A stretch of 64,000 bases of DNA, from assembly GCF_041146795.1 (NCBI RefSeq), contig NC_135187.1, forward strand, positions 5,715,556-5,779,555, read 5' to 3'. The notes beneath the pieces were generated by a model. It made no database searches. It was not told where the DNA came from and saw only the letters and a program-made list of their open reading frames with translations. The stretch is from Maylandia zebra. Its lineage: Eukaryota; Chordata; Actinopteri; Cichliformes; Cichlidae. Positions 5,236 through 61,217 of this stretch are shown here, in pieces; the stretch's first letter is position 1, and every line of letters begins with the position of its first letter. The translations under genes were made by a program, and so were the position numbers.

Positions 5236-5272
5236 CGTGGTTAGAGTTGAGTTAAAGTAAAGAAGTCAGAAA

Positions 5273-5320: not shown

Positions 5321-5699
5321 CATGCTGAGTATTTGAGGCGTGTTCACCTTCCACTGACTGGTAAACAAATGTTTAATCCAACTATTCCAGAGGTTATTCT
5401 ATAAAGAGGCTTATGGTCAAAAAGACTAGATCAGTGTTTTTGTGAAAACTCATCGTTTTTCGTTTGGGCCATTCGCCTGGGCTTGTGTTTGTTAAAGGCC
5501 AAAAATAGGCTACGTTACATAGCACAGATCTTGACACATTAAGCACCTCAGTATACTATGAGAGCTATAATGCAAGTCTTTTTTGTTTGTTTGTTTGTCT
5601 TGGGTTTTCTTTTTCTTTTGACCTGTGCTGCTTCCTGGTTTAAATTCTGCAAATATTTAACACAGAGAGCTTAACACACTGGAATGTGATTCAGTTCCT

Positions 5700-13005: not shown

Positions 13006-13696
13006 TGTTGTGATATTTTGATACCACGGTTAGCATTTACAGGATATTGTTTTATAGTGATATTATACAGGAAAACTGTTACTCAATAAGGCCCATTTAC
13101 TAGTTGTTTTTCTCTTTCTCTGTAACCTAAGAATTAATGTGTAAGAATCACAGGATGGTACCTCAAGGTTGAAAACACCACAGAGATCACTTCCTTATTC
13201 CCATCCTCCCTTCTTTATCTCCTAGAAAGGAGCTTGTTAAAGGCCAGGTGGTTCGTTTCAGAATTCACTAATGAAAGAACTCTGTATTCTATGTCTAGGA
13301 GTGTATTTTGCTGGGATGATCATAAATTGTAGCTGAACTGATAAACTATACAAAGGATACTTCTTTGCTCACAAGGCAGGAAAACGTTCCCTTATTTGGT
13401 CTGTACCGGTTTGAACTGAGAATCTGTTGACACACGAACCTTTTCCCTCTTTATATACTGTTGTAAGATGAATAAACCTTTGAGTCAGTTTGGAATGACA
13501 ACCTAGAACAGTCTCCGCGTCTTCTTGTTCTTCCAAACTGCTCCCGGTACTCCGGCCGGTACCGTGATTAACCATTGATCATGCATGAGAATATTTTAAT
13601 TTTGTTTATGTTAAAGGATGAACTCTGCTTATCGCTGCCCATGTCTCGAAGGAAACCCAATCCTCACAGACGGAGCTTTCTTTCAATTTGGTGTCA

Positions 13697-17194: not shown

Positions 17195-18568
17195 GATCCG
17201 GAGGGGATGTAGATACTGCATTGTCCGACTATGTTTACAATTTGGTAGAAACACTGAATAATAACTATCAGAAAGTTTGTCTCTCTCAGCCTTTCCCCTG
17301 CACAGTTCCACCAGTGGAGACAAGGAGACGCGGTGTTGGTGAAGTCGCTAAAACCAAGGACACTCAGGGAGGCCGTGCGTTTTCCAGCCCCCAGACTGTA
17401 CTGGCAGTGACGAAGAATCAGCATCCTCACAGACGGACAAACTAAGTGGATTCATGCCAGCAGGGTTAAGACCAGCCCAAGCAGACCATCTCAGGCGTCG
17501 GATCAAGCAGACAACACAGGCGAGCCAGCGCCCGGATCCAATGCACCTACACACACGCAATCACTGATTAACACACAACGTCTGAAAGAGCCACAGCAAG
17601 GTACTCGAACATCCAGCAGGAAGAGAAAGCCGAGAGTACCACATGATGTCTAATCTCATAAAGCTAGACTCATTCCATCCTGATAATGGAGAAAATGAAA
17701 TGCCCATTGTCATCATACAGCGCTTATTCTATGTCTCTCGAACCTGGGACCAGGCCAGAAGACGACTGAAGAACTGTTTTTCTTATATATTTAGGTTCTT
17801 TCACATTTATGATTTGTCTTTATATTATGTTATTACATTCTGTCTTTATACTATGTTATCATTTCATGATAAAAGGAGGGAACTGTTGTGATATTTTGAT
17901 ACCACGGTTAGCATTTACAGGATATTGTTTTATAGTGATATTATACAGGAAAACTGTTACTCAATAAGGCCCATTTACTAGTTGTTTTTCTCTTTCTCTG
18001 TAACCTAAGAATTAATGTGTAAGAATCACAGGATGGTACCTCAAGGTTGAAAACACCACAGAGATCACTTCCTTATTCCCATCCTCCCTTCTTTATCTCC
18101 TAGAAAGGAGCTTGTTAAAGGCCAGGTGGTTCGTTTCAGAATTCACTAATGAAAGAACTCTGTATTCTATGTCTAGGAGTGTATTTTGCTGGGATGATCA
18201 TAAATTGTAGCTGAACTGATAAACTATACAAAGGATACTTCTTTGCTCACAAGGCAGGAAAACGTTCCCTTATTTGGTCTGTACCGGTTTGAACTGAGAA
18301 TCTGTTGACACACGAACCTTTTTCCTCTTTATATACTGTTGTAAGATGAATAAACCTTTGAGTCAGTTTGGAATGACAACCTAGAACAGTCTCCGCGTCT
18401 TCTTGTTCTTCCAAACTGCTCCCGGTACTCCGGCCGGTACCGTGATTAACCATTGATCATGCATGAGAATATTTTAATTTTGTTTATGTTAAAGGATGAA
18501 CTCTGCTTATCGCTGCCCATGTCTCGAAGGAAACCCGATCCTCACAGACGGAGCTTTCTTTCAGCATG

Positions 18569-26678: not shown

Positions 26679-33325
<6,647 letters not shown>

Positions 33326-35990: not shown

Positions 35991-36149
35991 AGCAATAGTT
36001 GCTGGTGTGTTTTATTTTTTCAATTTCTTGTGTGTGCAGTGAGAATTAATAGAGGTTTCAATTGTTTTTTGTTTTTTACTTGCTCCTTCTGATTATGAAA
36101 GGCATGTCTAAAATACTCTGAATGAATTCAGAATGAACTCTTTTGAGTA

Positions 36150-37755
36150 CAGTGGGGCAAAAAAGTATTTAGTCAGCCACCGATTGTGCAAGTTCCCCCA
36201 CCTAAAATGATGACAGAGGTCAGTAATTTGCACCAGAGGTACACTTCAACTGTGAGAGACAGAATGTGAAAAAAAAATCCATGAATCCACATGGTAGGAT
36301 TTGTAAAGAATTTATTCGTAAATCAGGGTGGAAAATAAGTATTTGGTCAATAACAAAAATACAACTCAATACTTTGTAACATAACCTTTGTTGGCAATAA
36401 CAGAGGTCAAATGTTTACTATAGGTCTTTACCAGGTTTGCACACACAGTAGCTGGTATTTTGGCCCATTCCTCCATGCAGATCTTCTCGAGAGCAGTGAT
36501 GTTTTGGGGCTGTCGCCGAGCAACACGGACTTTCAACTCCCGCCACAGATTTTCTATGGGGTTGAGGTCTGGAGACTGGCTAGGCCACTCCAGGACTTTC
36601 AAATGCTTCTTACGGAGCCACTCCTTTGTTGCCCGGGCGGTGTGTTTTGGATCATTGTCATGTTGGAAGACCCAGCCTCGTTTCATCTTCAAAGTTCTCA
36701 CTGATGGAAGGAGGTTTTGGCTCAAAATCTCACGATACATGGCCCCATTCATTCTGTCCTTAATACGGATCAGTCGTCCTGTCCCCTTGGCAGAAAAACA
36801 GCCCCATAGCATGATGTTTCCACCCCCATGCTTCACAGTAGGTATGGTGTTCTTGGGATGCAACTCAGTATTCTTCTTCCTCCAAACACGACGAGTTGAG
36901 TTTATACCAAAAAGTTCTACTTTGGTTTCATCTGACCACATGACATTCTCCCAATCCTCTGCTGTATCATACATGTGCTCTCTGGCAAACTTCAGACGGG
37001 CCTGGACATGCACTGGCTTCAGCAGCGGAACACGTCTGGCACTGCGGGATTTGATTCCCTGCCGTTGTAGTGTGTTACTGATGGTGACCTTTGTTACTTT
37101 GGTCCCAGCTCTCTGCAGGTCATTCACCAGGTCCCCCCGTGTGGTTCTGGGATCTTTGCTCACCGTTCTCATGATCATTTTGACCCCACGGGATGAGATC
37201 TTGCGTGGAGCCCCAGATCGTGGGAGATTATCAGTGGTCTTGTATGTCTTCCATTTTCTGATGATTGCTCCCACAGTTGATTTTTTCACACCAAGCTGCT
37301 TGCCTATTGTAGATTCACTCTTCCCAGTCTGGTGCAGGTCTACAATACTTTTCCTGGTGTCCTTCGAAAGCTCTTTGGTCTTGGCCATGGCGGAGTTTGG
37401 AGTCTGACTGTTTGAGGCTGTGGACAGGTGTCTTTTATACAGATGATGAGTTCAAACAGGTGCCATTCACACAGGTAACGAGTGGGGGACAGAACAGCTT
37501 CTTACAGAAGACGTTACAGGTCTGTGAGAGCCAGAGATTTTCCTTGTTTGAGGTGACCAAATACTTATTTTCCACCCTAATTTACGAATAAATTCTTTAC
37601 AAATCCTACCATGTGAATTCATGGATTTTTTTTTTTCACATTCTGTCTCTCACAGTTGAAGTGTACCTCTGGTGCAAATTACTGACCTCTGTCATCATTT
37701 TAAGTGGGGGAACTTGCACAATCGGTGGCTGACTAAATACTTTTTTGCCCCACTG
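36150..37755 (-). mobile_element. Full-length Tc1-like transposon (1,606 bp)
   Basis: Inverted repeats of about 200 bp (36150-36349 and 37554-37755) begin CAGTGGGGCAAAAAAGTATT and are nearly identical, with three or four substitutions and a small poly-A length change. TA target duplications at 36148-36149 and 37756-37757. The interior is a single intact transposase gene. It is inserted in an older Tol2/hAT-like end. Confidence 0.95.
36366..37388 (-). CDS. Tc1-family DD34E transposase, intact (340 aa)
   Basis: Catalyses cut-and-paste movement of its own element by binding the inverted repeats and cleaving at TA sites. Residues 1-110 form the paired-like helix-turn-helix DNA-binding region, with SGAPRK (58-63) at the GRPR-like linker. 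The catalytic core has WSDET (D153), QHDNDPKHT (D244) and [11 protein letters not shown] (E279), giving exact DD34E spacing. A Gly-rich stretch ([13 protein letters not shown]) lies between. Length equals the usual 340 aa of fish Tc1 transposases, with no stop or frameshift. The start is ATG at 37388, followed by AKTKELSKD, the usual N-terminus. Activity is possible but untested; old fish copies are usually broken. Confidence 0.95.
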
Positions 37756-37797
37756 TAAGTACAGTAATGAAGTATTTGTACTTTGTTGTTTCCCACC

Positions 37798-41888: not shown

Positions 41889-44800
41889 TCACATTTGATT
41901 TAGTCTCTCAGCCTGCTCAGAACCATTATCAGGCACTGTAAGATCAAAAACATACAATCTGGATATTTTCAAAACTTTTCAAAGGTGTAATATGCAGTGA
42001 CTGGTGGTTTCTGTTTGCAAACGTGCCCCTGCTCCCCAGTTCAACAGAGAGACGATTAGTTATGGTCAAGCAAGCAAGAGTATAAATAACAAAGATGATC
42101 TGCACTGGCAAAAAGGTTTTGCTTTTGCATAAATCTGTGCATGTCTTAAAATGTAATCCTTTAATATCTTTAATGACACATCACATCTCACAAATTACAT
42201 ATATAATACAAGCAGGTTTTACTTACTGGGCGGAGAATATTCAGCTGAAATAAACAAAAAAACTTTTATCAGTTGTTAGAGTTTTTTCATTTCACATACA
42301 TTTTGTGTGCCTCCGTCATCTATTGATTTTTGTGTTCCTCTTTCCTGTTCAGAATGAAGAAGCCCATTTCAATTTCTATTAATTTGATTGGTTTGCTCTC
42401 ACATCACTATTATACTGTCATGGTCCTATGGCTCTAAAACTCATACTCTCATTTTAGATTTTGGCCATTTGTAACCAAACTCATGTGACAGTATGGATTC
42501 ACGAATTCAAAAAATAAAAATAAATATTTCTCCCATTTAGATTTCTCACCTTTCTTCTTTTTGTAAGCTACAGATACCACAGCTGCGATGAGGATGAGGA
42601 TGAAAACTAGAACAACCATTGCAGCACTGATGAAGATCACCATGTCAGTGGGCTTCTCTGCTGAACAAAATATTTCAACACTTGACATATGTCAATAGTA
42701 CAGAAAAAATGTGTTCAGGTATTAAAGAATGAGTTAAAAATGAAAAAGAAAGGACCTGATAGTTAATGAGTGTCTGAGTGAAACAGCAACACACCACTAC
42801 TGCTGCTCCATTACATTTACTCTGATCCCAGTTTTAGCCATGACTTATATTGCATGTTAATATTTATTACTTGTCACAGTTGGAGTAAGCCAAGTGTGAT
42901 AATTTGAAAGCTCAAGAAAACCAAATGATATTTTCAAAATCCCTGCAGGTTTCAGTCTTACCCCGGTTGGTCCTGATCACTGTTTTGTCCAGTTTGGTGA
43001 TAATGTCGCTACTAACTCCAGAGAGCTGAAACACACAGTCATACCTCTGCCACTCTTCAAGTGTAAGTGATAAAAGTTTCAGATCAACACTCATCTGGAA
43101 GGTCCCGTCATTGTTCGGGAGGATCTCGCCAGGATCAACACCTTCATGGATCTCCTCTCCATCTTTCCTCCAGAACATCAAGGCTCTGTCAGGATAGAAA
43201 CCTGTAGCGTGGCAGCTGACTGGAGAGGAGGGAGTCTTCTGGAGGAGAGACACTGAGGGAAGAACTGCAGAGAGACAGGTTTTTGAAATTTACTGTAAAT
43301 TTAAAAAATTAATACAAGAAGGCAATATGAATTCTCTTTTTTACTAGATGAGATTCTATAATTCTACCTGCTGTCTGCAGAAAGTTCCTCCCATAGTGCA
43401 CATATTTCTTTAGTAAATCAGGGCATTTAGAGGTGAAAAAGTTTTTATTGTATTCCAATCGAGTTTTTTCAGTATTCCATCTCATTTTGGTGATGACAGC
43501 CTGTGGTTTTGGAGCAATCCATGTCACTGTCTGCAGGTCAAAAGCTAGAAAGTCTTCTCCATCATAACCATACTGATTAAACCCATTAATTTCTCCAGTC
43601 TCATCATCCCATTCACAGCCATTCATTCTTTGCAAAATATGAACACCTGAAAATAGAGACAGCAACATTAATTGCAATAAACAAGTGAGAAACAAGCAGA
43701 TATCACACCTAATCAATGAAGAAACAATGCAAACACAAAATCAAAGGCTCTACACCTGCAACTGGTACAAAAATCAGTCTATCAGCGTTGAAGATTCTTA
43801 TTTTTTTCCCTCTGGCTTCTGGCTACTAGTCAACCTGTTTGCCTATTGATCCTGCTAAACTGTTTTGTTAGTTAGTTAGTTTGTTTGTAACTAATCCTCT
43901 GCACTTTATGATTCACTGTCTTCCATGTGTCAACTTCTCTCTCTCTCACATTTTCTTCATTCATCCCCAAAGTACTCCTTCCACCTTCCTAACATATTCT
44001 CTTCTCTCTTTAGTATATTTTAATTTCTATCGTTGATCATCCTAACCTGCTGCACATCATTTCCAGCTGAATCTCTCTGCCTAGCTGATAAGGACGAACT
44101 AGTCCCCAATAGTCCAGTTCCTATCGATCCTGCTTATCTGTTCCACTTGCACTTGCGCTACAATCAGCTGATTTCAGTTTGTGTTCCTGAGAAGGAAAAT
44201 AGTGGTGCAACTGTTTCTATTACAACATCTCATAGGTTCAAGGAATTTCAAACAGGACACCCTCTCACATCAGTTCTCTGACATCAGCCAGCCTTACCCT
44301 GTTCACGGTGGGGTTCCTAACGTGGGATTTGGAGACCATTAGAAAGGCTCTGCGAGATGAGCCTGATTTGAGTTCCAGTACCCCCAACCGTTGCTATGTG
44401 ACACTCTGCTGTGATCCACTAGGCTCACACCACCCAGTTTCCCTGTCACCATGGTTTGATAGAAACCTCTCACTCCTCAGACCTTACTTCTAGTGGGATA
44501 CTCTGGAGAAAGACGTCAAGGACTATGTGGCAGCTTGTTCCATCTTTGCCAGAAATAAAAGCAGCTGTATGCAATAGAGAAAGATCATGACCATGCCCTC
44601 TGTATACCTACAATAGAGCCAGTAGATCTGGACTCAGACCAGAGAGGCTTTGCTCACAACCACTAAACAAATTAAGGTGTATGCCGATTCCCACAGGACT
44701 CCCACAGAGAGTGATATTATACCCCTTTCGTCAAACTGAGTGATTTATGACCCCCCTAATTGATTTATGACCCCTAATAAATTATTCATGAGCTCCGGAA

Positions 44801-47800
44801 GTAATTAAATTATTCATGAGCTCCGGAAGTAGGAAGTAATTAAGTAATAAAAATATGATATTCATAAAAATATGATATTCATAAAAATATGATATTCATA
44901 AAAATATAATTGATTATTTAGAAAGTTTCTTATATATCAAAAAATAGCATTCTTTTATTTCTTTAAGCAATTAAATTTTTTTTTTATTTTTTTATGCTCA
45001 AAAAACGCCATCTGGTGGCGGGTCAGTGTGTGTGTGTGCGCGCGCCCGCGCGCGCCCGAGGCTGTGTGTCTGGGCGCGCGGGGGCGCGCCCGTGTCTCCG
45101 GACCGTGCTCTCTCGGGCTCCGTGCTCATGTGTTTAAAAATGTATTAAACCATATTAAAATTGTTTAGTTAAACTTGTGCTTTTGTAACGTTCAGTATGG
45201 CCACAAACACATGCTGCATGCCTTGGGGGAAAACTTTATTTCGATTTATATGCATTTGTAGATTTAGAATAAAACTCATACTCAGAAAAAACTCGCGATC
45301 CCCTAACCCTAACCCTCCTTAGAAACATAAGCAGGGAAAACTCCTTAAAAAACCCTCCGCGTTTTTTCCAAAACCCTACAATAACTTGTTAGGGTATCCC
45401 CTCTATTCCCAAAACCTTATATTCCATAACAGGGGAAATCCTGAAAAAATCCTTAGTCTTTTTTCTCAAATTCAGCGCCCCGCGGCTCCCTTCATGCTCA
45501 GCCAAACAAAGCCAAAACTCCTTTTAAAAAATTCTCCGCGATTTCTCCAAAACCCTAGAATAACTTGTTAGCTACCCCTCTATTCCCAAAAAAAAAAAGC
45601 GCTATAATCCAAAAACATTGGGAAAGCTCCTTACTCTTTTTTCTTCAAAAACTTCCCTCTTACTAGCAAGCTCTAAAATTCAACCCACACTCTAAGTTCT
45701 ACCTCGCTCTTAATCTCCGATCCACAACTTCTTGCAGAGCACAATTTTTTCCTGCTTGTTCGCTCCCCGCTCTGCTCCCGAATGCGCTGCTTACCTCGTT
45801 CGAAATTTGCGCCGGAGACCAACTCCCCCCCTTACTTCGCCCCGCTGCCAATCACATAACTATTGCACCGCTCCCTTCGCACCCCGGTTAGCCAATCCGC
45901 TCCAGGTCCGATTTTTATGATCTCCCGCTCAGGTTAAGACTACCCCCGAGCTCCCAGAAGACCCCTGCCTTCAGCCATATCAACAACTGGAACCGCTCAG
46001 ACTGCTTGCGAGTTCGCATAGGGAGCGGCCGATTTCAACAGCAACTTGCGTCTCTTTCCTTATCCGCATATCATTCGGTAAGTGTTAATCTTCCTCTCTA
46101 ACTACATTTTTGCATTTTCCTTTTTACCATTCTGTCAATCCTTTCATTTAAAAAAATAAATAAATATCACAATGGTTTGTAACAGGTACAATACACCATC
46201 CATCCATCCATTCGCCTCCACTTATCCTTTTCTCAGGCTCGCGCGGTGCGCTGGAGCCTATCCCACGTACAATACACTTTAAAATATATATAAGCTCCAC
46301 TTTTAACTCCCGTAAAAGTTTATACATTACATGTCTACATCACCTATCATGGCCTCATCGGGTATCTCATATCATCTTGTTATTGTTATGTTATGCTCCT
46401 TTGATATTTTGCTAGTTTGCGTGTTTTAAAACTCTTTTTGTTTTTCTTTATATTTTTAGACCCAGATGTGTTAACCTGATCCCTGCGAAACACCAGCTCT
46501 GCGTGGATTTTGACCGCGAGTGACCGGATGTTGTTTCCGGCCTGAGGTTGCCTGAAATGCCTTGAGGCTCGTTTGAAAGATTGCGCCCGAGACCAACTCC
46601 GCCTCCAAGGCATGCCTACCTTTAGCTGCCACCAGTGAGATATCAGAGCCGGGCTCCACATATCCAATCAGGAGCACGAGCAAGACAGCTTTTGCAGACT
46701 CTCCAGAAATATACAAGTCCTTACCAACTGCTCTGCAACCCAGTGTTTCTGGTCCCCTCACTAACATCGCTTTTTGAGATATTTTTTATGAACCACCAAA
46801 AAAGCAATTTTACCCCACAGACTGGGTCTGAGGGCAGCAGCGGGGACAAATGATTGTAATGAAGCGACGGACATTTCATGGCTGGTCTTGCATAATCGTG
46901 AGTTATTATGTCATATGGTGATAAGTACATAGTTTTGCAAGAGGCATACAAGCACTGTGGAAAAAGTAATCATAAAACTGTTTTTGTGAACACCCTACGT
47001 TATGCTTTAAAAAATGTGATACATGTAATGTGATCATCAAAGAACATGATTTTTTAAAAAAAACAAACTTTTATTCTTATGCTTTTAAAGTATGTCAGAT
47101 TATCTTAAAACACTTATTTGTATGTTATAATGTTTTTCTTACACCATGTGTAATTTTTATAGACACCTTATTCATTGTATCAATGTGTAATTATGTATCT
47201 TTGATAAATAAATAAAATATTTAATCTTGTATTTGTGTACTTTCTGGTGATTCAATAAAAAATTAGTCACATATCGCTCTGATAAACACAGATGGCTGAA
47301 AGAAATGTTTGATGGAACAAAGGAAACAAGTGTCTTGCTGCTAAACTTTTAAGTCACCGTGGTTTAAATGAGAAAGTCTGTATGTAAAACATGAAAAACT
47401 CCATATCAGTGATATCTACAAAGGTGTACTCATTTCTTTGTAATGGTACTTTACTGTTCCAATGAAACAAAAAGAAAATCTCATTTTTAAAGTACATTTT
47501 TCGGCCACCCTGACCTATTTTCAGGGGCAAGAATGTTGATGTTAGACTGTGTTTTAAATCAGGTTGTGATCTTAAACTAACTATCACAGCACTGATTTCA
47601 GTTGTAATGTCAATTAGAATCCCAATTTGGCTTTTCTCCAGTCAGTGTTATGGTGAAATTTAACTTGTTCTTTTGTGTAATTGCACATGGCCCAGCAAAG
47701 GACCCCTTAGTAAACTGTACAGCATAAGTTTTCAATTCACTTTTGTCAGAAAACTTCACAGTATGAGAAGTTACAGCACAGTTTCTCCAAACGTGTGGTT

Positions 47801-50637
47801 CTTTTTCAGCCAGCGTGCTTTTAGAGCATCTACATTAGCTCATGTAGTAAAAGTACAATCAGTAAGTGTACTTTAACATTTGAGATTCCGAGTCACTCTT
47901 GCTTAGATCATGTGAACTATATCATGAACCTTTTTTTGTATAATGCATCAAACGTGTTCAAATCAGTTTATTTTCAATTTATTTTAACTAATCTAGAGAC
48001 AAGCAACTCCTTTTTAGCTTCTGTTATGTATTTACCTCTCACACCTTAATCTAGATGTTAGTGTTCTCAGAGTTAACATGTCTCATGTTGCCATGTTGTA
48101 TTTCTAATACCCAGCCTCAGTGTTCGCCCTGTTGACCCTCAAATCCAAACACCAATGATCTAGATATTCACAAAATTCATAAGGAGATTCTTAAGGTCTT
48201 AAGTTTTGTTGTTTTTATGTTTTACAAAAAAAAACTTCACATTTTTTATATTTTTAAACGAAAGTGACATGCAAGGATATTTTTCTTTAGTGATGTTGCT
48301 TCAGCAATCTCAAATACTAATTATTCTGGGAATTTTTATGGTCAAACTATGTGATTTTCCAAATGTGTGTGTGTGGAGTAAAATGACCTTGTTCTTATGA
48401 TGTTGTCACCGTGAATCATTTAGGATTAACAACACAAATTGTATCGATAGCAGAAACAGTCTTATAACTTATAATTCTCACACGTTACCGCCAGTTCTAC
48501 AAACGCAGTCTTCTTCAGCTCTGTTTATGTAGCTTTTATGAAACTGATTTTCCATAGTACAAGTAGAATTTAATTTTTCTTTGCTCTCCAGTATAAATGC
48601 AATAATTTGCAGGCTTTTTACTGAAACTCTCACAATGCAACACTCAATGCTCAGAGCTTCATATATCAACAGCTCTGAAAATATCTTCTTTTTTAAAGTA
48701 ATGTAGGACAGGATCTCTCACTCTCTGTGTCTCAAAAAAACCCCAACTAAACTGGCAATCACCACTAAACAAATGAAAGTAGTTTATGGCTTTTTTATCA
48801 GCTGCATTTCTTTCATTTATGTATTGATCCCATTGTTTATTGGTAATGCTTTTAGGTCACTGTTTTAGCATGTCTGCCTCACACTCCATTTAAACAGTTT
48901 AACAGATAGTGGGGTCTGGTAAGGAAGTTGGGGGGAAGCAGACAACTCCACAGGAAGAGTCTTTTTGTCTTTTCTCCACTGTAAAAGATAGCAAGGCAGT
49001 GTGAAACTTTCTTTGCGGGAAAGACAAAACTGAGAGCCATGCTAGGCTCAGTGAGAGACTCTGCTCACCCTCTGCCCCAGCGATGGCAGTCCCTCACCAA
49101 GCTTGATTTCTGTTCTTTGTCTTGATTAAAGAATGTTAGCTACCGCTCATCGCTTGTCTGCAGGCTTTATTAAACGGAAAACTTCCACAACAACCTCTAA
49201 ACAGTGGTTTATGGCTTTTTGTCACCTGCAACACCATGTAACACTTGGATGTTAGATTCTTTTACCAGTCAGTGTTGTTAGCCCCTACCCCCAGGCTCCA
49301 GGTGTCTGAGCTCTAACCCTGGCTGCCAAATGTCCCCCTGAGGCCTTTGTGCCTTTTACCACCAGACTAAGTTTGTAGTCCTATCTACTAATATTATTTT
49401 ATTTTTTTATTATAGCACAAGTTTCAGTTAGGTTACTACTTTGACTTCCTCAATTTGAGCACATTTCTGACCCGATACTTTATCAAGCTTTTACTCGAGT
49501 GTTTTTGACACTAGCAGCTGTACTTCTACTTAAGTGAAAATTGCCTGCAATTTTGCCACCTCAGTTGCCACTTTTCTGGAGTTTGTACACTTTTTATATT
49601 GAAACGTTCAACGTTTTACGTGTTATCCTTGATCACAGTTCTAAACAAGTTAACTTTCTTCACTTCAAAGTAACCCAAAAAAGAAACTATATGTCCAGTT
49701 CTCTTTACTCCAAACCTGGTTTAAGGCTATGCTGTTGTTGTGATATGGCCATACAAATAATATTAAGTTTAATTAATCTTTTAAAAAAATGGCTGCTTCA
49801 TGGCTACCTGTTCAGAGAATTTGCAGACTTTTATGGAAACTGTCACAATGTAACACTCTCACTGTCAAAACAGGGTTGATCCATGTTTCTATGAACACTG
49901 ATTAATATATCAACAGCTCTGAAAATCCTTTTTTTTTTTTTTTAAGTAAAGCAGAACAGGATCTCTGTATCTCTAAAAATCCCAACAAAACTGGCAATCA
50001 CCTCTAAACAAATGGAAGTAGTTTATGGATCTTTATCACCTGCAACACCATGTAACACCTAGATGTTAGACTCTTTTACCATCACATTTGCAAGGGTTTA
50101 TGTGTTATCCTTGATCACAGTTCTAAATAAGTTAACTTTCTTGACATAAAAGTAGCCCAAAGAAGACAAATATATGTCCAGTTCTTTTTTACTCCAAACC
50201 TACTGATCGGAAAACATTATGTGATGCTGGAAGTTTTCATCCTATCCATCTGCAAAACAAGTTTACCTGTAAGCCAACACATTAGACGTAAGCAAATTTG
50301 TGAAATTCCTGAACAATGTGCTTTGTGGAGTAGCAGTAGTACTAGAACTAGTACTAGTAGTCCTAGTATTCTGCAGCAACCAGGCTTCAAGAGTGATCAC
50401 TCTTCTGGCTTTCAAATGGTGAAAACATGTCACAGTCTTAACCGCAAATCAGAAATGTTGGTAAATTTAAAAAGGAATTTAAACGTCAGCTTTGACATAG
50501 ACACAGACTTTATTAATGCCACACTCAGGAAATTCACATGTTACACATGATTTAGCTCACCTGCTAAATCCCCAGAGCAATAACCACATCAGCATCATTA
50601 GCCTGAGTGTTGATCCTCCAGGTGAGTGAGTGGAGTT

Positions 50638-50699
<62 letters not shown>

Positions 50700-52259
50700 T
50701 ATCAGAGGTGAAGCTGCTTTCTGCAAAGTCTCATCAACAACCAGGAAGAGTCTAAAAGCACTAAATATGAAACAGACCATTTACCATACCCAACACTGAG
50801 CTCCTGCACAGTCAGATGGAGTGAAACATAATGTCCCAGTGGTGTTCTGTTGGATTTAGCAGGTGAGCGTTGTTGCCAGTCAAAACCTTTTTGGAAACTC
50901 TTTACAAGAATCAATGTAATTATTTGTTTTACTTGAATCAAATGTATTGGTTTATATACCTGAAATAAAACTTTTTTTTGGAAACCCGTTACATCAAATA
51001 AAACTTTCTTGGAAAAGCATTGCAAGAATCAATCGAGTTATTTGTTTTACCCCATTCAAATCTATTGGTTTCATTACATCAAATTAAATAATTTTGGAAA
51101 CCCGTTACATCAAATAAAACTTTCTTGGAAAAACTTTACAAGAATCAATGTAATTATTTGTTTTACTTGAATCAAATGTAATGGTTTATATACCTGAAAT
51201 AAAACTTTTTGTTAGAAAAATCAAACTGTGTCTCGTGCAGGTGTATTGTGACTGCTCCATCACAATGTATAATTTGACTTGTGAGGTACACACAACAAGG
51301 CCAACAAGAAAAAGTGAATTAGAGATTCATTACAAAATACAAAAAATAAAAATAAATAGTGCACAAATTTAAAACAAGCAAAACACCTATGCAAGAGTAA
51401 CTACTAATGATTTACAAATACTTGTCATATACAACCAATACACTCAGAGAATTTTACCATATCAGTATAAAGCTCTCTGTAATTCCTGGACAGTTCGTGA
51501 AATAATTTAAAATTAAATCTGCACTTCAGTTAACTATTCTTTTTTTAACAACAGGTTTATGTCTTAGATCTACGGATACAGCTAAAACACTCTGCTTGTA
51601 TAATGCTGTATTCTCTCCCAGCTTATCCTTTTCTCACAACAGGGTGATTCCCAAAGTACGAGTCAATAAAACAATCACTCTAAAAACCAGAACAGAAAGA
51701 TAAAGTTGCAAAATAAAAGATTAAGGATTGTGTTTTTATAGCATGTAGTAAACTATCCCCTTTTTCTAACACAGAGTTTGTATGAAGTTCACTTTATCAG
51801 CTGAAAATATTAAAGCCAGAACTTACAAGATCAAAAACCTTTTACTTCATGTACAGGGTTTCCAAAATTATTTAATTTGATGTAATGAAACCAATAGATT
51901 TGAATGGGGTAAAACAAATAACTCGATTGATTCTTGCAATGCTTTTCCAAGAAAGTTTTATTTGATGTAACGGGTTTCCAAAAAAAAGTTTTATTTCAGG
52001 TATATAAACCAATACATTTGATTCAAGTAAAACAAATAATTACATTGATTCTTGTAAAGAGTTTCCAAAAAGGTTTTGACTGGCAACAACGCTCACCTGC
52101 TAAATCCAACAGAACACCACTGGGACATTATGTTTCACTCCATCTGACTGTGCAGGAGCTCAGTGTTGGGTATGGTAAATGGTCTGTTTCATATTTAGTG
52201 CTTTTAGACTCTTCCTGGTTGTTGATGAGACTTTGCAGAAAGCAGCTTCACCTCTGATA

Positions 52260-52327
<68 letters not shown>

Positions 52328-55300
52328 AACTCCACTCACTCACCTGGAGGATCAACACTCAGGCTAATGATGCTGATGTGGTTATTGCTCTGGGGATTTA
52401 GCAGGTGAGCTAAATCATGTGTAACATGTGAATTTCCTGAGTGTGGCATTAATAAAGTCTGTGTCTATGTCAAAGCTGACGTTTAAATTCCTTTTTAAAT
52501 TTACCAACATTTCTGATTTGCGGTTAAGACTGTGACATGTTTTCACCATTTGAAAGCCAGAAGAGTGATCACTCTTGAAGCCTGGTTGCTGCAGAATACT
52601 AGGACTACTAGTACTAGTTCTAGTACTACTGCTACTCCACAAAGCACATTGTTCAGGAATTTCACAAATTTGCTTACGTCTAATGTGTTGGCTTACAGGT
52701 AAACTTGTTTTGCAGATGGATAGGATGAAAACTTCCAGCATCACATAATGTTTTCCGATCAGTAGGTTTGGAGTAAAAAAGAACTGGACATATATTTGTC
52801 TTCTTTGGGCTACTTTTATGTCAAGAAAGTTAACTTATTTAGAACTGTGATCAAGGATAACACATAAACCCTTGCAAATGTGATGGTAAAAGAGTCTAAC
52901 ATCTAGGTGTTACATGGTGTTGCAGGTGATAAAGATCCATAAACTACTTCCATTTGTTTAGAGGTGATTGCCAGTTTTGTTGGGATTTTTAGAGATACAG
53001 AGATCCTGTTCTGCTTTACTTAAAAAAAAAAAAAAAGGATTTTCAGAGCTGTTGATATATTAATCAGTGTTCATAGAAACATGGATCAACCCTGTTTTGA
53101 CAGTGAGAGTGTTACATTGTGACAGTTTCCATAAAAGTCTGCAAATTCTCTGAACAGGTAGCCATGAAGCAGCCATTTTTTTAAAAGATTAATTAAACTT
53201 AATATTATTTGTATGGCCATATCACAACAACAGCATAGCCTTAAACCAGGTTTGGAGTAAAGAGAACTGGACATATAGTTTCTTTTTTGGGTTACTTTGA
53301 AGTGAAGAAAGTTAACTTGTTTAGAACTGTGATCAAGGATAACACGTAAAACGTTGAACGTTTCAATATAAAAAGTGTACAAACTCCAGAAAAGTGGCAA
53401 CTGAGGTGGCAAAATTGCAGGCAATTTTCACTTAAGTAGAAGTACAGCTGCTAGTGTCAAAAACACTCGAGTAAAAGCTTGATAAAGTATCGGGTCAGAA
53501 ATGTGCTCAAATTGAGGAAGTCAAAGTAGTAACCTAACTGAAACTTGTGCTATAATAAAAAAATAAAATAATATTAGTAGATAGGACTACAAACTTAGTC
53601 TGGTGGTAAAAGGCACAAAGGCCTCAGGGGGACATTTGGCAGCCAGGGTTAGAGCTCAGACACCTGGAGCCTGGGGGTAGGGGCTAACAACACTGACTGG
53701 TAAAAGAATCTAACATCCAAGTGTTACATGGTGTTGCAGGTGACAAAAAGCCATAAACCACTGTTTAGAGGTTGTTGTGGAAGTTTTCCGTTTAATAAAG
53801 CCTGCAGACAAGCGATGAGCGGTAGCTAACATTCTTTAATCAAGACAAAGAACAGAAATCAAGCTTGGTGAGGGACTGCCATCGCTGGGGCAGAGGGTGA
53901 GCAGAGTCTCTCACTGAGCCTAGCATGGCTCTCAGTTTTGTCTTTCCCGCAAAGAAAGTTTCACACTGCCTTGCTATCTTTTACAGTGGAGAAAAGACAA
54001 AAAGACTCTTCCTGTGGAGTTGTCTGCTTCCCCCCAACTTCCTTACCAGACCCCACTATCTGTTAAACTGTTTAAATGGAGTGTGAGGCAGACATGCTAA
54101 AACAGTGACCTAAAAGCATTACCAATAAACAATGGGATCAATACATAAATGAAAGAAATGCAGCTGATAAAAAAGCCATAAACTACTTTCATTTGTTTAG
54201 TGGTGATTGCCAGTTTAGTTGGGGTTTTTTTGAGACACAGAGAGTGAGAGATCCTGTCCTACATTACTTTAAAAAAGAAGATATTTTCAGAGCTGTTGAT
54301 ATATGAAGCTCTGAGCATTGAGTGTTGCATTGTGAGAGTTTCAGTAAAAAGCCTGCAAATTATTGCATTTATACTGGAGAGCAAAGAAAAATTAAATTCT
54401 ACTTGTACTATGGAAAATCAGTTTCATAAAAGCTACATAAACAGAGCTGAAGAAGACTGCGTTTGTAGAACTGGCGGTAACGTGTGAGAATTATAAGTTA
54501 TAAGACTGTTTCTGCTATCGATACAATTTGTGTTGTTAATCCTAAATGATTCACGGTGACAACATCATAAGAACAAGGTCATTTTACTCCACACACACAC
54601 ATTTGGAAAATCACATAGTTTGACCATAAAAATTCCCAGAATAATTAGTATTTGAGATTGCTGAAGCAACATCACTAAAGAAAAATATCCTTGCATGTCA
54701 CTTTCGTTTAAAAATATAAAAAATGTGAAGTTTTTTTTTGTAAAACATAAAAACAACAAAACTTAAGACCTTAAGAATCTCCTTATGAATTTTGTGAATA
54801 TCTAGATCATTGGTGTTTGGATTTGAGGGTCAACAGGGCGAACACTGAGGCTGGGTATTAGAAATACAACATGGCAACATGAGACATGTTAACTCTGAGA
54901 ACACTAACATCTAGATTAAGGTGTGAGAGGTAAATACATAACAGAAGCTAAAAAGGAGTTGCTTGTCTCTAGATTAGTTAAAATAAATTGAAAATAAACT
55001 GATTTGAACACGTTTGATGCATTATACAAAAAAAGGTTCATGATATAGTTCACATGATCTAAGCAAGAGTGACTCGGAATCTCAAATGTTAAAGTACACT
55101 TACTGATTGTACTTTTACTACATGAGCTAATGTAGATGCTCTAAAAGCACGCTGGCTGAAAAAGAACCACACGTTTGGAGAAACTGTGCTGTAACTTCTC
55201 ATACTGTGAAGTTTTCTGACAAAAGTGAATTGAAAACTTATGCTGTACAGTTTACTAAGGGGTCCTTTGCTGGGCCATGTGCAATTACACAAAAGAACAA

Positions 55301-58300
55301 GTTAAATTTCACCATAACACTGACTGGAGAAAAGCCAAATTGGGATTCTAATTGACATTACAACTGAAATCAGTGCTGTGATAGTTAGTTTAAGATCACA
55401 ACCTGATTTAAAACACAGTCTAACATCAACATTCTTGCCCCTGAAAATAGGTCAGGGTGGCCGAAAAATGTACTTTAAAAATGAGATTTTCTTTTTGTTT
55501 CATTGGAACAGTAAAGTACCATTACAAAGAAATGAGTACACCTTTGTAGATATCACTGATATGGAGTTTTTCATGTTTTACATACAGACTTTCTCATTTA
55601 AACCACGGTGACTTAAAAGTTTAGCAGCAAGACACTTGTTTCCTTTGTTCCATCAAACATTTCTTTCAGCCATCTGTGTTTATCAGAGCGATATGTGACT
55701 AATTTTTTATTGAATCACCAGAAAGTACACAAATACAAGATTAAATATTTTATTTATTTATCAAAGATACATAATTACACATTGATACAATGAATAAGGT
55801 GTCTATAAAAATTACACATGGTGTAAGAAAAACATTATAACATACAAATAAGTGTTTTAAGATAATCTGACATACTTTAAAAGCATAAGAATAAAAGTTT
55901 GTTTTTTTTTAAAAATCATGTTCTTTGATGATCACATTACATGTATCACATTTTTTAAAGCATAACGTAGGGTGTTCACAAAAACAGTTTTATGATTACT
56001 TTTTCCACAGTGCTTGTATGCCTCTTGCAAAACTATGTACTTATCACCATATGACATAATAACTCACGATTATGCAAGACCAGCCATGAAATGTCCGTCG
56101 CTTCATTACAATCATTTGTCCCCGCTGCTGCCCTCAGACCCAGTCTGTGGGGTAAAATTGCTTTTTTGGTGGTTCATAAAAAATATCTCAAAAAGCGATG
56201 TTAGTGAGGGGACCAGAAACACTGGGTTGCAGAGCAGTTGGTAAGGACTTGTATATTTCTGGAGAGTCTGCAAAAGCTGTCTTGCTCGTGCTCCTGATTG
56301 GATATGTGGAGCCCGGCTCTGATATCTCACTGGTGGCAGCTAAAGGTAGGCATGCCTTGGAGGCGGAGTTGGTCTCGGGCGCAATCTTTCAAACGAGCCT
56401 CAAGGCATTTCAGGCAACCTCAGGCCGGAAACAACATCCGGTCACTCGCGGTCAAAATCCACGCAGAGCTGGTGTTTCGCAGGGATCAGGTTAACACATC
56501 TGGGTCTAAAAATATAAAGAAAAACAAAAAGAGTTTTAAAACACGCAAACTAGCAAAATATCAAAGGAGCATAACATAACAATAACAAGATGATATGAGA
56601 TACCCGATGAGGCCATGATAGGTGATGTAGACATGTAATGTATAAACTTTTACGGGAGTTAAAAGTGGAGCTTATATATATTTTAAAGTGTATTGTACGT
56701 GGGATAGGCTCCAGCGCACCGCGCGAGCCTGAGAAAAGGATAAGTGGAGGCGAATGGATGGATGGATGGTGTATTGTACCTGTTACAAACCATTGTGATA
56801 TTTATTTATTTTTTTAAATGAAAGGATTGACAGAATGGTAAAAAGGAAAATGCAAAAATGTAGTTAGAGAGGAAGATTAACACTTACCGAATGATATGCG
56901 GATAAGGAAAGAGACGCAAGTTGCTGTTGAAATCGGCCGCTCCCTATGCGAACTCGCAAGCAGTCTGAGCGGTTCCAGTTGTTGATATGGCTGAAGGCAG
57001 GGGTCTTCTGGGAGCTCGGGGGTAGTCTTAACCTGAGCGGGAGATCATAAAAATCGGACCTGGAGCGGATTGGCTAACCGGGGTGCGAAGGGAGCGGTGC
57101 AATAGTTATGTGATTGGCAGCGGGGCGAAGTAAGGGGGGGAGTTGGTCTCCGGCGCAAATTTCGAACGAGGTAAGCAGCGCATTCGGGAGCAGAGCGGGG
57201 AGCGAACAAGCAGGAAAAAATTGTGCTCTGCAAGAAGTTGTGGATCGGAGATTAAGAGCGAGGTAGAACTTAGAGTGTGGGTTGAATTTTAGAGCTTGCT
57301 AGTAAGAGGGAAGTTTTTGAAGAAAAAAGAGTAAGGAGCTTTCCCAATGTTTTTGGATTATAGCGCTTTTTTTTTTTGGGAATAGAGGGGTAGCTAACAA
57401 GTTATTCTAGGGTTTTGGAGAAATCGCGGAGAATTTTTTAAAAGGAGTTTTGGCTTTGTTTGGCTGAGCATGAAGGGAGCCGCGGGGCGCTGAATTTGAG
57501 AAAAAAGACTAAGGATTTTTTCAGGATTTCCCCTGTTATGGAATATAAGGTTTTGGGAATAGAGGGGATACCCTAACAAGTTATTGTAGGGTTTTGGAAA
57601 AAACGCGGAGGGTTTTTTAAGGAGTTTTCCCTGCTTATGTTTCTAAGGAGGGTTAGGGTTAGGGGATCGCGAGTTTTTTCTGAGTATGAGTTTTATTCTA
57701 AATCTACAAATGCATATAAATCGAAATAAAGTTTTCCCCCAAGGCATGCAGCATGTGTTTGTGGCCATACTGAACGTTACAAAAGCACAAGTTTAACTAA
57801 ACAATTTTAATATGGTTTAATACATTTTTAAACACATGAGCACGGAGCCCGAGAGAGCACGGTCCGGAGACACGGGCGCGCCCCCGCGCGCCCAGACACA
57901 CAGCCTCGGGCGCGCGCGGGCGCGCGCACACACACACACTGACCCGCCACCAGATGGCGTTTTTTGAGCATAAAAAAATAAAAAAAAAATTTAATTGCTT
58001 AAAGAAATAAAAGAATGCTATTTTTTGATATATAAGAAACTTTCTAAATAATCAATTATATTTTTATGAATATCATATTTTTATGAATATCATATTTTTA
58101 TGAATATCATATTTTTATTACTTAATTACTTCCTACTTCCGGAGCTCATGAATAATTTAATTACTTCCGGAGCTCATGAATAATTTATTAGGGGTCATAA
58201 ATCAATTAGGGGGGTCATAAATCACTCAGTTTGACGAAAGGGGTATAATATCACTCTCTTCCCACTCCTAGCTTTGTAACTATTCAAAAGGTATGGCTTT

Positions 58301-61217
58301 CTGCTAAAAACATTCCTTTAAAATCTCTAACTTATAAACTTGCTCCCATTACATTGGACCGTATGAGACTGACTCAGTGATCAGCCCCTCTGCAGTGAAA
58401 CTCAAGTTGCCTCCATCTCTACAAATTCATCCTACATTCCATGTCTCTGAAATCAAACCTGTTCAGTCTAGTCCATTATGTCCTCTGTCCAACCCACTAT
58501 CACTTGCCCATCACCCGGCCTACACCGTCAGCCAGATTGTAGACAGCTGACATCGAGGCATCACCGGTTTCTCATTGACTAGCAAGGATATGGCCCAGAG
58601 GAGCATTCCCGAGTACCCCGTTCTTTAATCCTTCACCCTTCCATAAGCTCTGATTTTTCAATCAGTCATCAGTAGTTTTTTGAGTAATAACTGCAACAAT
58701 GATAACAACAAAGAGGGGAAATACCTCCAACATGCAAAAACATTTGACAACACAGCATGCAATTAATTTGCACAAATGTAATATGGTTGATAGTGATGGT
58801 GGTGACTCTTAAAGTGGAGCCAATGAGAACCAAATGAGAATTAATAAAGAATAGAATTGAGAAGTGATATCAATTGAATTAGAATCGCTAAATTCAATTC
58901 CCATTACTACTAGCCAATCAATACAAGTCTTTTCCTCCTTCCTTAGTGTCCAGCCTTACATACAACTTGCTATAAGCCTTTTCTTTCTCTTTGCTACACA
59001 CCTAGCCTCCCAGTACTCCTGTCTACTGTCTTCATCTCCCTGGCTATTCCACTTTCTCTTTGGTGACTGCTTCCTTTAAATACTTTCCTGTACTTTCTAA
59101 GTCCACCACCAAGTTTACTTGTCCTCTTTCCTCTTTCTAGAGAATACACCAAACACCTTCTTAGCAGTTTCTCTCAATACAGATGTACTTTCCCAGTCAT
59201 CTGGTAACTCTTCCTTACTACGCACAGCCTGTCTCACCTTTGAATTCTATGCAACATTCTTCTTTATTCAACTTCCACCGTTCAGTTGTTTGCTCGTCTT
59301 GATTTAACACAATACCCTATGTACTGTACCTCCCTCTTCTTAAAGTAGGTGTTCACCATACGCAAATAATTTTTTCTCGTTTTTATATAGCCCATTATAG
59401 AGCACTCAAAGCACTTTAACATGCCTCTTTCACACTGCAATGGATGCATCAGAGACCAACTTGTGGTTAGTATCTTCCACAAGGATATTTGGCATTTACA
59501 CTAGAGCAGCCAGGGATCATACCACAAATCTTCCAATTAGTAGATGACTTGCTCTACCTCCTGAACCTCACCCACCACTCTTCACCTTTGCTAAATTCAC
59601 CCACTTGACCCATTCAACATCAATCTTGTATTTTAAAATAAACGAATAATAATAATTTCAACAATCATCAGCAGTCAAATGAAACAAATCCATACCTTCA
59701 GTTTGGTTGAAACGTCGCTTTATCCTCTCAATGTGACCTTTGAAGAACTGATGATTATCTAAACACTGAAAAATGTACCACTCCAGGTGTTGAGGATCAT
59801 CCTTTAAGAGATTTTTAATCCAGTGTGCTTTGAGTTCTGGTCCCCTTCCGCTGCTATTGCAGTCACCTATCTGAACTTCATCGACAAGTGCAACAGCCAC
59901 AAACTCAGGGATGCTTTGGATTTCAGTGGTTTCAGTGAAGAAATACTTCAAGGAATGTTTTACTGTAAAATTGATGGGACTTTGTATTAGGTCATTTTCA
60001 TGTATGACTGTCAATAGTATAATCAAGAATGTTTTTGTTATATTTTTTTACTTGGTGTCCATACAGAAAGGGAAATTTTTGTGTGGGGTTATGATTATTT
60101 GTGTGAATGTGTGTGTGAATGGGAGGATGACTGAATGTAGTGTAAAGCGCTTTGGGGTCCATAGGGACTAAGTAAAGCGCTATACAAATACAGGCCATTT
60201 ACCATTTACCGTTTACCATTTAAGAAGGACAAGCATATCAGTCAAACTTATTTCGTGTTTAGCATTAACTTGAAAACACTTTAACTCATAACACTGTTAC
60301 TGGAGTTTACATGGCTGCAACTGGATATATCACTAAAAAATATCTGTGACACATATTTAGACTTACATGAACTGTGGCCTCTGCAACATTGGAAAACTAC
60401 ACCCTGGATTAAATACTAACCGTTTGATGTGGTTTTTAGTATTTATGATATATAAATACTAACTGTTGCTGCTAGGTAAAATTGCATTAATGGTCAACAA
60501 GTAAATGAAAATTTAAAATTAACTCTTAGAATTGCTAATATCATTTTGGCCTATGCATCTATTTTTATTTATTTATTTATTTATTTTGTAAAATATCAAT
60601 GAAACTAAACATTTTTTTATTTATTATATTTATCACATTATTAAAATGAATTTAAATGAAGACTTACTTTTTAAAAGAAAAGATCATTTAAATATGCTTT
60701 GAGTAGAATATGTATTTGTGATTATTTTGAAATATTACAATAAATAGAAATTCCAGGTGGGGAGGGATCTCAAATTGCAGCTGTTAATTTCAATTGTATT
60801 AAAATTAAATGTTTTTAACATTTTTGCCTGTTTAGGCTCACATGTGGTGATTTGGACATGAGAATATTCAATGGAATATTCATCATTCACTAACCGCTGA
60901 AACATTTTAAAGAGCTACAACTCTCTAACCAAGTAAGTAAACTTGCATTTTAATCAGTGATAAACTATACCATAAAAAAGGCTTTATCTATACAGTCCCT
61001 CGAAAATAATTTGACATGTCAGGGGCTTTTTATCTTTCCTCTGAACTTGAGAATAACTAAATGAAATTGCAACAGCTCATAGTGAAACTAAAAGTCAAAG
61101 TCGCTTGCAATTTAAGCTGCTATAAGTTAAGGAGAACTTTATAAAAAATACTTGAAATATGATCTTACCTGGAAACACAGCATGACAGCAGAGGAGTAAT
61201 ATGAACACATTCTCCAT
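41889..61217 (-). CDS. MHC class I heavy chain, locus 4 (complete frame, giant intron 2)
   Basis: Minus-strand exons: leader 61169-61217 ([17 protein letters not shown]), alpha1 59696-59962, alpha2 43368-43646, alpha3 42962-43264, TM 42550-42657, tail 42227-42244, last exon 41889-41935 (TGA). All phases fit; total 1071 nt, 356 aa. Two in-frame upstream ATGs (61229 and 61247) could extend the leader. Alpha1 keeps Y7 (HSLKYFF) and ends with NQT. Alpha2 has [20 protein letters not shown] and both cysteines. Alpha3 has [12 protein letters not shown] and YDCVFQLSG, and ends 27 nt earlier than the others because the donor GTAAGA directly follows TNRG. The TM is [20 protein letters not shown] followed by YKKKK. 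It is the most classical U-lineage-like member here. Intron 2 (43647-59695) holds the palindrome, so whether exons 1-2 and 3-7 are still joined in mRNA is inference. Confidence 0.75.
44290..44705 (+). mobile_element. Ty3/gypsy integrase remnant, left part
   Basis: A degenerate plus-strand frame reads [18 protein letters not shown], then [20 protein letters not shown]. This resembles the zinc-binding N-terminal region of Ty3/gypsy integrases (H2C2, VxxCxxCARxK type). It passes stops, then [19 protein letters not shown], which belongs near the C-terminal end, so the catalytic core is deleted. The copy is dead and is cut at 44705 by the palindrome. Confidence 0.7.
44700..44705. repeat. Left 6-bp target duplication (TCCCAC) of the palindrome
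   Basis: TCCCAC directly precedes the first base of the inverted repeat and recurs directly after its last base at 58260-58265. Confidence 0.9.
45008..45120. promoter_or_regulatory. GC/CpG-rich segment in the palindrome arm (mirror at 57845-57957)
   Basis: A dense run of GCGCGC/CGCCCG in otherwise AT-rich DNA, 0.6 kb before a candidate spliced transcript. It could act as a CpG-type promoter. This is inferred from composition only. Confidence 0.3.
45720..47235 (+). ncRNA. Candidate spliced non-coding transcript in the left arm
   Basis: A strong donor CG/GTAAGT (GT at 46078) is followed 380 nt later by a pyrimidine-rich acceptor TATTTTTAG (exon from 46460) and a poly(A) signal AATAAAATAT at 47211, with T/GT-rich sequence after it. 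The exon 1 region is GC-richer than its surroundings. Frames inside are short (62 and 98 codons) and match no family I know. The right arm carries the mirror image (donor at 56887, acceptor AG at 56506-56507, poly(A) signal at 55749-55754), so transcription from both arms would converge on the centre. This is a prediction only. Confidence 0.3.
50641..50698. repeat. (TG)n microsatellite, left arm
   Basis: About 28 TG units. The mirror tract in the right arm (52261-52325) is 6 bp longer and is the only length difference found between arms. Confidence 0.95.
51104..51855. other. Central spacer of the palindrome
   Basis: 752 bp of AT-rich non-palindromic DNA. Its first 110 bp continue the tandem units of the arm end (GGAAACCCGTTACATCAAAT and TTTACAAGAATCAATGTAAT, also at about 50890-51000), so the spacer starts within a repeat. 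No coding feature. Confidence 0.85.
51856..58259 (-). repeat. Right arm of the palindrome (6,404 bp)
   Basis: Reverse complement of the left arm; all landmarks are mirrored, including AGGGTTAGGGTTAGGG at 57649-57664 and the GC-rich segment at about 57845-57957. Confidence 0.95.
58260..58265. repeat. Right 6-bp target duplication (TCCCAC)
   Basis: Exact copy of 44700-44705, directly after the last base of the inverted repeat. Confidence 0.9.
58266..58625 (+). mobile_element. Ty3/gypsy integrase remnant, right part
   Basis: The plus strand reads [15 protein letters not shown] and, after a frame change, [20 protein letters not shown]. This is the typical C-terminal region of chromodomain-type Ty3/gypsy integrases (GQKVWLS and HPxFHVSxLKP motifs). 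It continues the remnant that stops at 44705. A trace of the following AYTV motif is visible at about 58522. Dead copy. Confidence 0.8.
58920..59370 (-). mobile_element. Degenerate RTE/Rex3-like LINE endonuclease remnant
   Basis: The minus strand includes [15 protein letters not shown] (about 59360-59315), corresponding to the VNTFFxKRxxHxVTY stretch of the endonuclease of fish RTE-type LINEs. Flanking DNA (TTAGCAGTTTCTCTCAATAC, CCCAGTCATCTGGTAACTC) also matches the usual antisense reading of this family. Highly decayed. Confidence 0.5.
59375..59580. repeat. Old SINE-like repeat
   Basis: TTTTTATATAGCCCATTATA, CACTCAAAGCACTTTAACAT and GACTTGCTCTACCTCCTGA match a common fish repeat that normally reads TATATAGCGC...CACTCAAAGCGCTTT...CTCTACCACCTGAGCC. 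Confidence 0.5.
60098..60225 (+). repeat. 5'-truncated copy of the tRNA-derived SINE
   Basis: GTGTGAATGTGTGTGTGAAT, GTAAAGCGCTTTGGGGTCC, AAAGCGCTATACAAATACAG and then CCATTTACCATTTACC match the 3' half of the SINE at 40782-41110. It lies in intron 1 of MHC locus 4. Confidence 0.85.

Follow-up and report, generated by a model that had tools for sequence, protein, structure and literature searches.

A palindromic element with two polymerase-side Maverick ends in an MHC class I intron of Maylandia zebra

Vertebrate Mavericks (Polintons) have the end motifs (AGT)2//(ACT)2 and (AG)3//(CT)3, 6-bp target duplications, two facing gene modules, terminal repeats of 46-1,447 bp and a total length of 12.7-24.6 kb, and Maverick particles have not been observed (PMC8097293). 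The word stem "palindrom" is absent from the main text of that paper. In Chinook salmon, a ~20-kb Polinton-like insertion containing a 10-kb palindrome was described upstream of gh1 in 2008, and it is the sole precedent found in the open-licence literature on palindromic or non-autonomous Polintons/Mavericks (PMC2584663, in its available parts). Here, we report on a 64,000-nucleotide stretch of the Maylandia zebra genome (GCF_041146795.1, NC_135187.1, positions 5,715,556 to 5,779,555 of the forward strand; hereafter the window), which holds a palindromic element of 13,554 bp at positions 44706-58259 in an intron of a major histocompatibility complex (MHC) class I gene. Both arms of this element carry the polymerase-side end of a Maverick. 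The element is probably a non-autonomous Maverick derivative in which a single polymerase-side end, together with DNA joined to it, is repeated in mirror image; it is likely to have been founded by snap-back, mobilised in trans, and repeatedly re-equalised between its arms.

Protein-primed linear replicons, such as adenovirus and the pGKL1-derived yeast plasmids, yield snap-back or palindromic defective genomes. We know of no direct observation of Maverick replication. Palindromes made of two polymerase-side ends are expected leftovers of protein-primed strand-displacement replication and may therefore be fossils of Maverick replication and a concrete test for it.

Anatomy and Maverick parentage of the element

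Self-BLAST aligned 44706-51119 with 58259-51840 as an inverted repeat at 99.83% identity over 6,420 columns, and the near-perfect palindrome with 6.4-kb arms seen in the initial annotation of this DNA is real. The left arm in the strict sense (44706-51103, plus strand, 6,398 bp) and its inverted copy, the right arm (51856-58259, minus strand, 6,404 bp), were delimited by self-comparison, and their boundaries enclose a central spacer of 752 bp (51104-51855). The strict arms differ by a single substitution (47055 T versus 55910 A) and by 6 bp in length, a difference confined to a (GT)n microsatellite run; four additional mismatches are located just inside them. The annotation was thus right that the outer 5.9 kb contain no indel, while its statement that a 6-bp microsatellite change is the only difference overlooks the substitution. 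The terminus AGAGAGTGATATTATACCCC is present at left and right, so that the element runs AGAGAGTG...CACTCTCT with the end motif AGAGAG/CTCTCT, and a comparison of the flanks identified TCCCAC as the target-site duplication at 44700-44705 and 58260-58265. The ends and the exact 6-bp duplication given in the annotation are thereby confirmed.

The longest stop-to-stop open reading frame (ORF) within the arm is 139 amino acids, and no Pfam family scored above the cut-off in 10 scanned ORFs of the arm and spacer. Polymerase, integrase, ATPase and protease genes of its own, as a Maverick has them, were not found among these ten ORFs. We therefore classify the element as a non-autonomous derivative and not as a full Maverick, and the term "giant non-autonomous element" used in the annotation holds. 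When 62 ORFs of the arm interior (from 35 amino acids) were compared with five coding Maverick loci, a tandem repeat was the sole match.

The coding relative E4 (C21:33578118-33594631) has the same ends as the window element and encodes a 1,425-amino-acid family-B polymerase (PF03175, 2.3e-38), a Pox_A32-type ATPase, an adenain-type protease, and an integrase with rve and chromo domains; the other six of its 10 scanned ORFs had no match above the Pfam cut-off. Its genes form two facing modules in the order published for vertebrate Mavericks. E4 and a second relative sharing these ends, E1, are the kind of copy with a coding core that the annotation had proposed to look for, and their cores are unlike those of the palindromic copies.

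Positions 1-1209 of each window arm (44706-45914, plus strand; 57051-58259, minus strand) are homologous to both ends of these coding Mavericks, with 94-95% identity to both E1 ends and 86-93%, depending on the piece, to both E4 ends. Arm positions 1210-1451 (45915-46156, plus strand; 56809-57050, minus strand) are homologous only to the polymerase-side end: both window arms align to the polymerase side of E1 and E4 up to position 1451, and to the integrase side only up to 1209. Therefore, the palindrome is bounded by a polymerase-side end on the left and on the right alike. Similarity to the polymerase side continues in patches to arm position 1665, and the left arm of another copy, E5, retains a 486-bp polymerase-side block at 94-97% identity, of which the window element keeps just 25 bp. 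Farther in, arm positions 1742-6176 (46447-50881, plus strand) form the arm interior, which has blocks ~80% alike in a second palindrome, F2 (see below). A tandem repeat with a unit of 116-118 bp marks the inner end of the left arm (50882-51206, plus strand) and of the right arm (51832-52077, minus strand) and is 74-84% like a repeat beside the E4 integrase gene. Over their first 600 bp, the ends of the window element match E1 at 99-100% identity; those of E5 match E4 at 99-100% over 1.2 kb, and the E5 arm matches E4 at 99.85% over 673 bp. Such near-identity indicates that ends have been exchanged or shared with coding copies.

A CpG-rich, promoter-like stretch in the left arm is followed downstream by a splice-donor-like GTAAGT at 46078 and an acceptor-like TTTTTAG at 46459, as judged by eye. 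The donor is conserved in E4, upstream of the polymerase (also by eye). Given these sites, the palindromes may be transcribed from both arms.

The 6-bp duplication, the end motif, and terminal repeats common to coding members place the element among Mavericks, and its arms, ~5.5-6.7 kb across the family, are a variant feature against the published terminal repeats of 46-1,447 bp. The suggestion in the annotation of a Polinton/Maverick derivative that lost its coding core is borne out by the motif, the duplication and the 1.2-kb termini in common with coding Mavericks; it had missed that both arms are the polymerase-side end and not the two different ends of a Maverick. Its "new class" was too strong a term, since this is a variant of a known superfamily with a precedent in Chinook salmon (PMC2584663, in part).

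The long inverted arms and the lack of a detected coding region would also be expected of an unrelated fold-back or miniature inverted-repeat transposable element (MITE)-type DNA transposon. This origin is scarcely credible in view of the Maverick end motif, the 6-bp duplications and the homology, 1.2 kb long, with the ends of coding Mavericks. MITEs are short elements of hundreds of bp with terminal inverted repeats only, and we rejected this assignment for an element of 13,554 bp with Maverick ends; a foldback element was rejected because of the same Maverick ends and the homology to coding Mavericks. Outside this genome, an 18-bp match of the terminal 18-23-mers in viral contigs was dismissed as chance because the neighbouring bases differ from the element, and two other terminal-sequence patterns had no match in viral contigs. 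Four matches of an 18-mer in prokaryote genomes were likewise taken as chance, and the arm segment 44706-47300 had no match among phage records.

The element family and the likeness of its arms

The genome searched comprises 962 Mb in 63 contigs, and the window falls on contig C21. The annotation had proposed a search with the terminal sequence; with the first 200 bp of the element, at least 49 matches were found (40 of 112 candidates scored), and many of these form inverted pairs at distances of 0.9-17 kb. Besides the window element, we read 15 other paired elements (E1-E15) and 8 loci at which a single end is present. The same 20-bp terminus (AGAGAGTGATATTATACCCC) is present at both ends in all 16 elements, so that the ends are reproducible, and an exact 6-bp duplication flanks 14 of the 16, E2 being ambiguous because of a TA run. 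Two long near-identical arms are found in eight copies (the window element, E6, E7, E8, E9, E11, E12, and E13), E2 has unequal arms, and E5, E3, and E15 have a single long arm. A search with the arm interior (40 scored of 100 candidates) returned matches of 98-100% identity throughout. The window palindrome is a member of a multi-copy family. Two further elements of ~1 kb, E10 and E14 (L030 and L033), share these ends and are flanked by 6-bp duplications; they are MITE-like Maverick derivatives.

Perfect palindromes are a known shape of assembly or library artefacts, such as a fold-back read or a hairpin chimera. A fold-back read, however, would mirror the flank, and here the mirror stops exactly at TCCCAC and is followed by distinct flanks; the layout also recurs at other loci, each with its own duplication. 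We therefore rejected the artefact, which is most improbable. The recurrence of the termini and 6-bp duplications, together with the eight two-armed copies, likewise makes chance or a one-off assembly error unlikely.

Of the 12 elements with a spacer match, eight (E2, E3, E7, E9, E11, E12, E13, and one at L046) have a symmetry that extends 80 bp beyond that of the window element, to one common point. This point was not seen in the letters read of E5, E8, and L041, and E6 has no spacer match. The junction sequences suggest, by eye, an ancestral spacer of ~541 bp. The inner edge of the window palindrome was considered as the founding fold point and rejected, since the other copies indicate a later change within the tandem repeat. 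One fold point in 8 of 12 elements fits a single founding event for the window family. A search with the spacer (40 of 123 candidates scored) also returned weaker relatives at 72-94%.

The arm-interior tree was built from 21 of the 28 rows of arm sequence; 7 rows with fewer than 1,000 filled positions were dropped (both of E1, both of E4, and one each of E3, E5, and E15), and E10, E14, and the 8 one-end loci stood outside it. The two arms of the same copy are sisters in nine of nine copies tested, and all nine forks are starred. Over 1.6-4.2 kb of interior, the arms of a pair differ at 0-4 sites; between copies the difference is 0.36-0.97% (median 0.65%, 36 pairs). In these nine copies, the arms within a copy are more alike than the arms of different copies. 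Their sister relationship in every copy therefore indicates that the arms copy each other. Among private changes, at which the other copies are unanimous, 57 occur in both arms and 12 in a single arm, and 4 arm differences fall at polymorphic sites; in a larger set, 72 are on both arms and 43 on one, or 40 and 26 without clustered changes. In the printed alignment, an 18-bp inversion is common to the two arms of E7, and an internal-repeat swap to those of E6. Such changes are not expected to arise twice by chance and support arm-to-arm copying. Either of the two accounts of the arm identity in the initial annotation, very recent insertion or ongoing arm-to-arm conversion, may be right; it missed that the element belongs to a multi-copy family with re-equalised arms (nine copies) and that a second family with the other Maverick motif exists.

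These complex private changes in both arms of E6 and E7 are also what would be expected if the arms were equalised in place only, by gene conversion, and transposition moved a ready-made palindrome. This reading, which is compatible with either founding mechanism considered below, is quite possible; the spectra of one-arm and both-arm changes, which are not significantly different, also agree with it. Arm-specific indels that persist beside nearly difference-free stretches speak weakly against it, as they may postdate the last conversion. An apparent difference between one-arm and both-arm spectra in the interior set was dropped because it was not significant in the larger set. The right arm of E9 only (L029) contains an insert named by eye as long interspersed nuclear element (LINE)-like, with an 808-amino-acid open frame and an apparent ~13-bp duplication.

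Other palindromes and the founding mechanism

One of the weaker relatives found with the spacer, F2 (C7:45153974-45165152), is an 11,179-bp palindrome with arms 99.0% identical over 7,906 columns in the inner part and 99.0% over 1,539 columns in the outer part. It ends in AGTAGT/ACTACT, the (AGT)2 motif, with a GCTGTG duplication on both sides. Its fold point differs from that of the window element, the window spacer segment being located within the F2 arms. Elements on C7, C24, C15, and C5 match the terminal 200 bp of F2 at both of their ends. Seven other copies of the F2 lineage have a polymerase match, from which their sides were assigned; there, similarity covers positions 1-200 at the polymerase-side end (84-92%) but is confined to 1-169 at the far end. 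A stretch of the F2 arm has 94-98% matches at 15 places, each ~1-6 kb upstream of a polymerase match, and two of these places are in the C4 copy described next. Judged from these similarities, both ends of F2 are of the polymerase-side type. A further copy, C4:19470187-19482573, has by its coordinates two ends of this type and polymerase matches that are exactly mirrored, 5,128-5,823 from each end. The surrounding interval (G000:C4:19470121-19482639) holds, again by coordinates, two polymerase matches that face each other, the open frames around them being 929 and 970 amino acids long, compared with 1,345-1,388 amino acids in several other copies. The search with Pox_A32 found six places only (E1, E4, and four polymerase neighbours of this type) and says nothing about an ATPase in the C4 copy. 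Both termini thus come from the same parental end, as snap-back products would have it, in the window element by sequence, in F2 by similarity and in C4 by coordinates.

We propose that the founder arose during protein-primed replication of a linear Maverick intermediate, when a strand that had been displaced bent back on itself and served as template up to its 5' end. Such a snap-back would duplicate one Maverick end and delete the other. The palindrome would then have spread in trans, using integrase and polymerase supplied by coding Mavericks that share its ends (E4, for example) and inserting with 6-bp duplications. Its arms may have been re-equalised repeatedly through self-pairing of a single palindromic strand in an extrachromosomal cycle, through chromosomal arm-to-arm gene conversion, or through both.

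The same anatomy, two polymerase-side ends around a spacer, is predicted by a head-to-head dimer. Such a dimer would have formed through recombination between two identical elements, linear or nested, or through fusion of sister ends; it would then have become mobile as one unit, with its arms kept alike by chromosomal gene conversion. The arms of Y-chromosome palindromes are kept alike through gene conversion, and arm-to-arm copying is shown here. The occurrence of polymerase-side palindromes with the other end motif (F2) and with polymerase sequence (C4, by coordinates) fits a replication accident better; this argument counts only in part, as F2 has blocks in common with the window family. 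We consider the dimer rather unlikely as the founding event.

Several points weigh against snap-back founding, trans-mobilisation and re-equalised arms as proposed here. A head-to-head dimer from recombination would give the same look, snap-back is deduced from its products with no replication intermediate seen, and trans-mobilisation is argued from the common ends alone. F2 blocks are 78-87% identical to parts of the window arms, the tandem repeat, and the spacer, and with these ~80% blocks in common an independent origin of the two palindromes is not proven. The C4 copy has the look of a fold-back close to its own polymerase gene, but it is described from coordinates with the letters unread, as are the ten further inverted pairs of the window type located by the arm-interior search. 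The 4.4-kb arm interior has no known source. E15 has no target duplication, and E4 may itself be defective because its capsid-like gene, named by position only, is split across two frames. As for the copying between arms, 9 of the 18 inner branches of the tree, those between copies, are open. In whole projected arms of the nine copies, repeats included, the differences within pairs (0.02-0.89%) and between the left arms of different copies (0.59-2.51%) overlap in range. Large indels are arm-specific in E7, E8, E9, and E11, so that equalising is incomplete, and the share of CpG transitions in one-arm and both-arm changes (Fisher p 0.19 and 0.38) does not separate the modes of equalising. Finally, the flanks of the window element, joined to look for an empty site in the same genome as the annotation had proposed, matched only the two flanks themselves, and no gypsy paralog displaying such a site was found.

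A broader proposal, which we offer tentatively, is that Mavericks regularly give rise to palindromes, which then succeed as parasites: fold-back of the polymerase-side strand in protein-primed replication would have founded several lineages within one genome (the window family, F2, and C4), the arms would be re-made from one strand in each round of transposition, and arm divergence would date insertions as long terminal repeats (LTRs) date a retrovirus. If so, the palindromes would live as satellites of coding Mavericks, using them and perhaps being packaged by them. In many young copies, including the one in an MHC class I intron, the palindromes display arm-to-arm copying down to the single base. 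Such repeats would tend to collapse or break in short-read assemblies.

Insertion site and comparison with known systems

Joined through one TCCCAC, the flanks of the element give by eye an unbroken reading of the C-terminus of a Ty3/gypsy integrase. The left part of this decayed target fragment (44423-44705, plus strand) was recognized by its reading frame by eye, and its short piece at 44423-44590 had no Pfam match; the right part (58266-58550, plus strand) contains an SH3_Tf2-1 domain (Pfam, E 1e-11). The ORF with the alpha-1 exon of the host MHC class I gene (59658-60047, PF00129 positions 2-90) is located to the right of the element, and the ORFs with the alpha-2 exon (43309-43740, PF00129 positions 90-179) and the alpha-3 exon (42912-43289, C1-set, Pfam) are located to its left, all on the minus strand. 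The insertion is therefore between exons 2 and 3, in intron 2, and these exons bracket the element as its placement in an MHC class I intron by the annotation implied.

Other elements were noted in the window. A Tc1/mariner element at 36148-37757 encodes on its minus strand an uninterrupted 361-amino-acid transposase frame (PF25787, PF01498, and PF13358) between inverted repeats of ~204 bp that are 97.5% alike. Direct repeats of 680 bp at 13006-13685 and 17884-18563, 99.7% identical and 4.9 kb apart, are possibly the LTRs of a young retrotransposon. A 676-amino-acid open frame on the minus strand at 28333-30363 passes, by eye, from an MHC class I alpha-2-like segment through a dinucleotide run into a LINE-like reverse transcriptase.

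The foldback elements FB, TU and Galileo resemble the window element in having very long inverted arms that flank a spacer, but they belong to other superfamilies, have other target duplications, and have no Maverick ends. Snap-back genomes share with it the duplication of one terminus, the loss of the other, and the form of an inverted dimer around a spacer; they are extrachromosomal, whereas the window family consists of inserted, amplifying genomic repeats. The Chinook salmon insert was presented as one unusual insertion and, unlike the present family, comes with no account of ends, duplication, family, arm comparison, or mechanism in the available parts of the report (PMC2584663). Vertebrate Mavericks, as described in the available part of PMC8097293, share with the window element the (AG)3//(CT)3 ends, the 6-bp duplication, a total length in or near 12.7-24.6 kb, and ends common to a coding copy. 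The window element, in which no coding genes were found, differs from them in its arms of ~5.5-6.7 kb and in that both of its halves come from one Maverick end.

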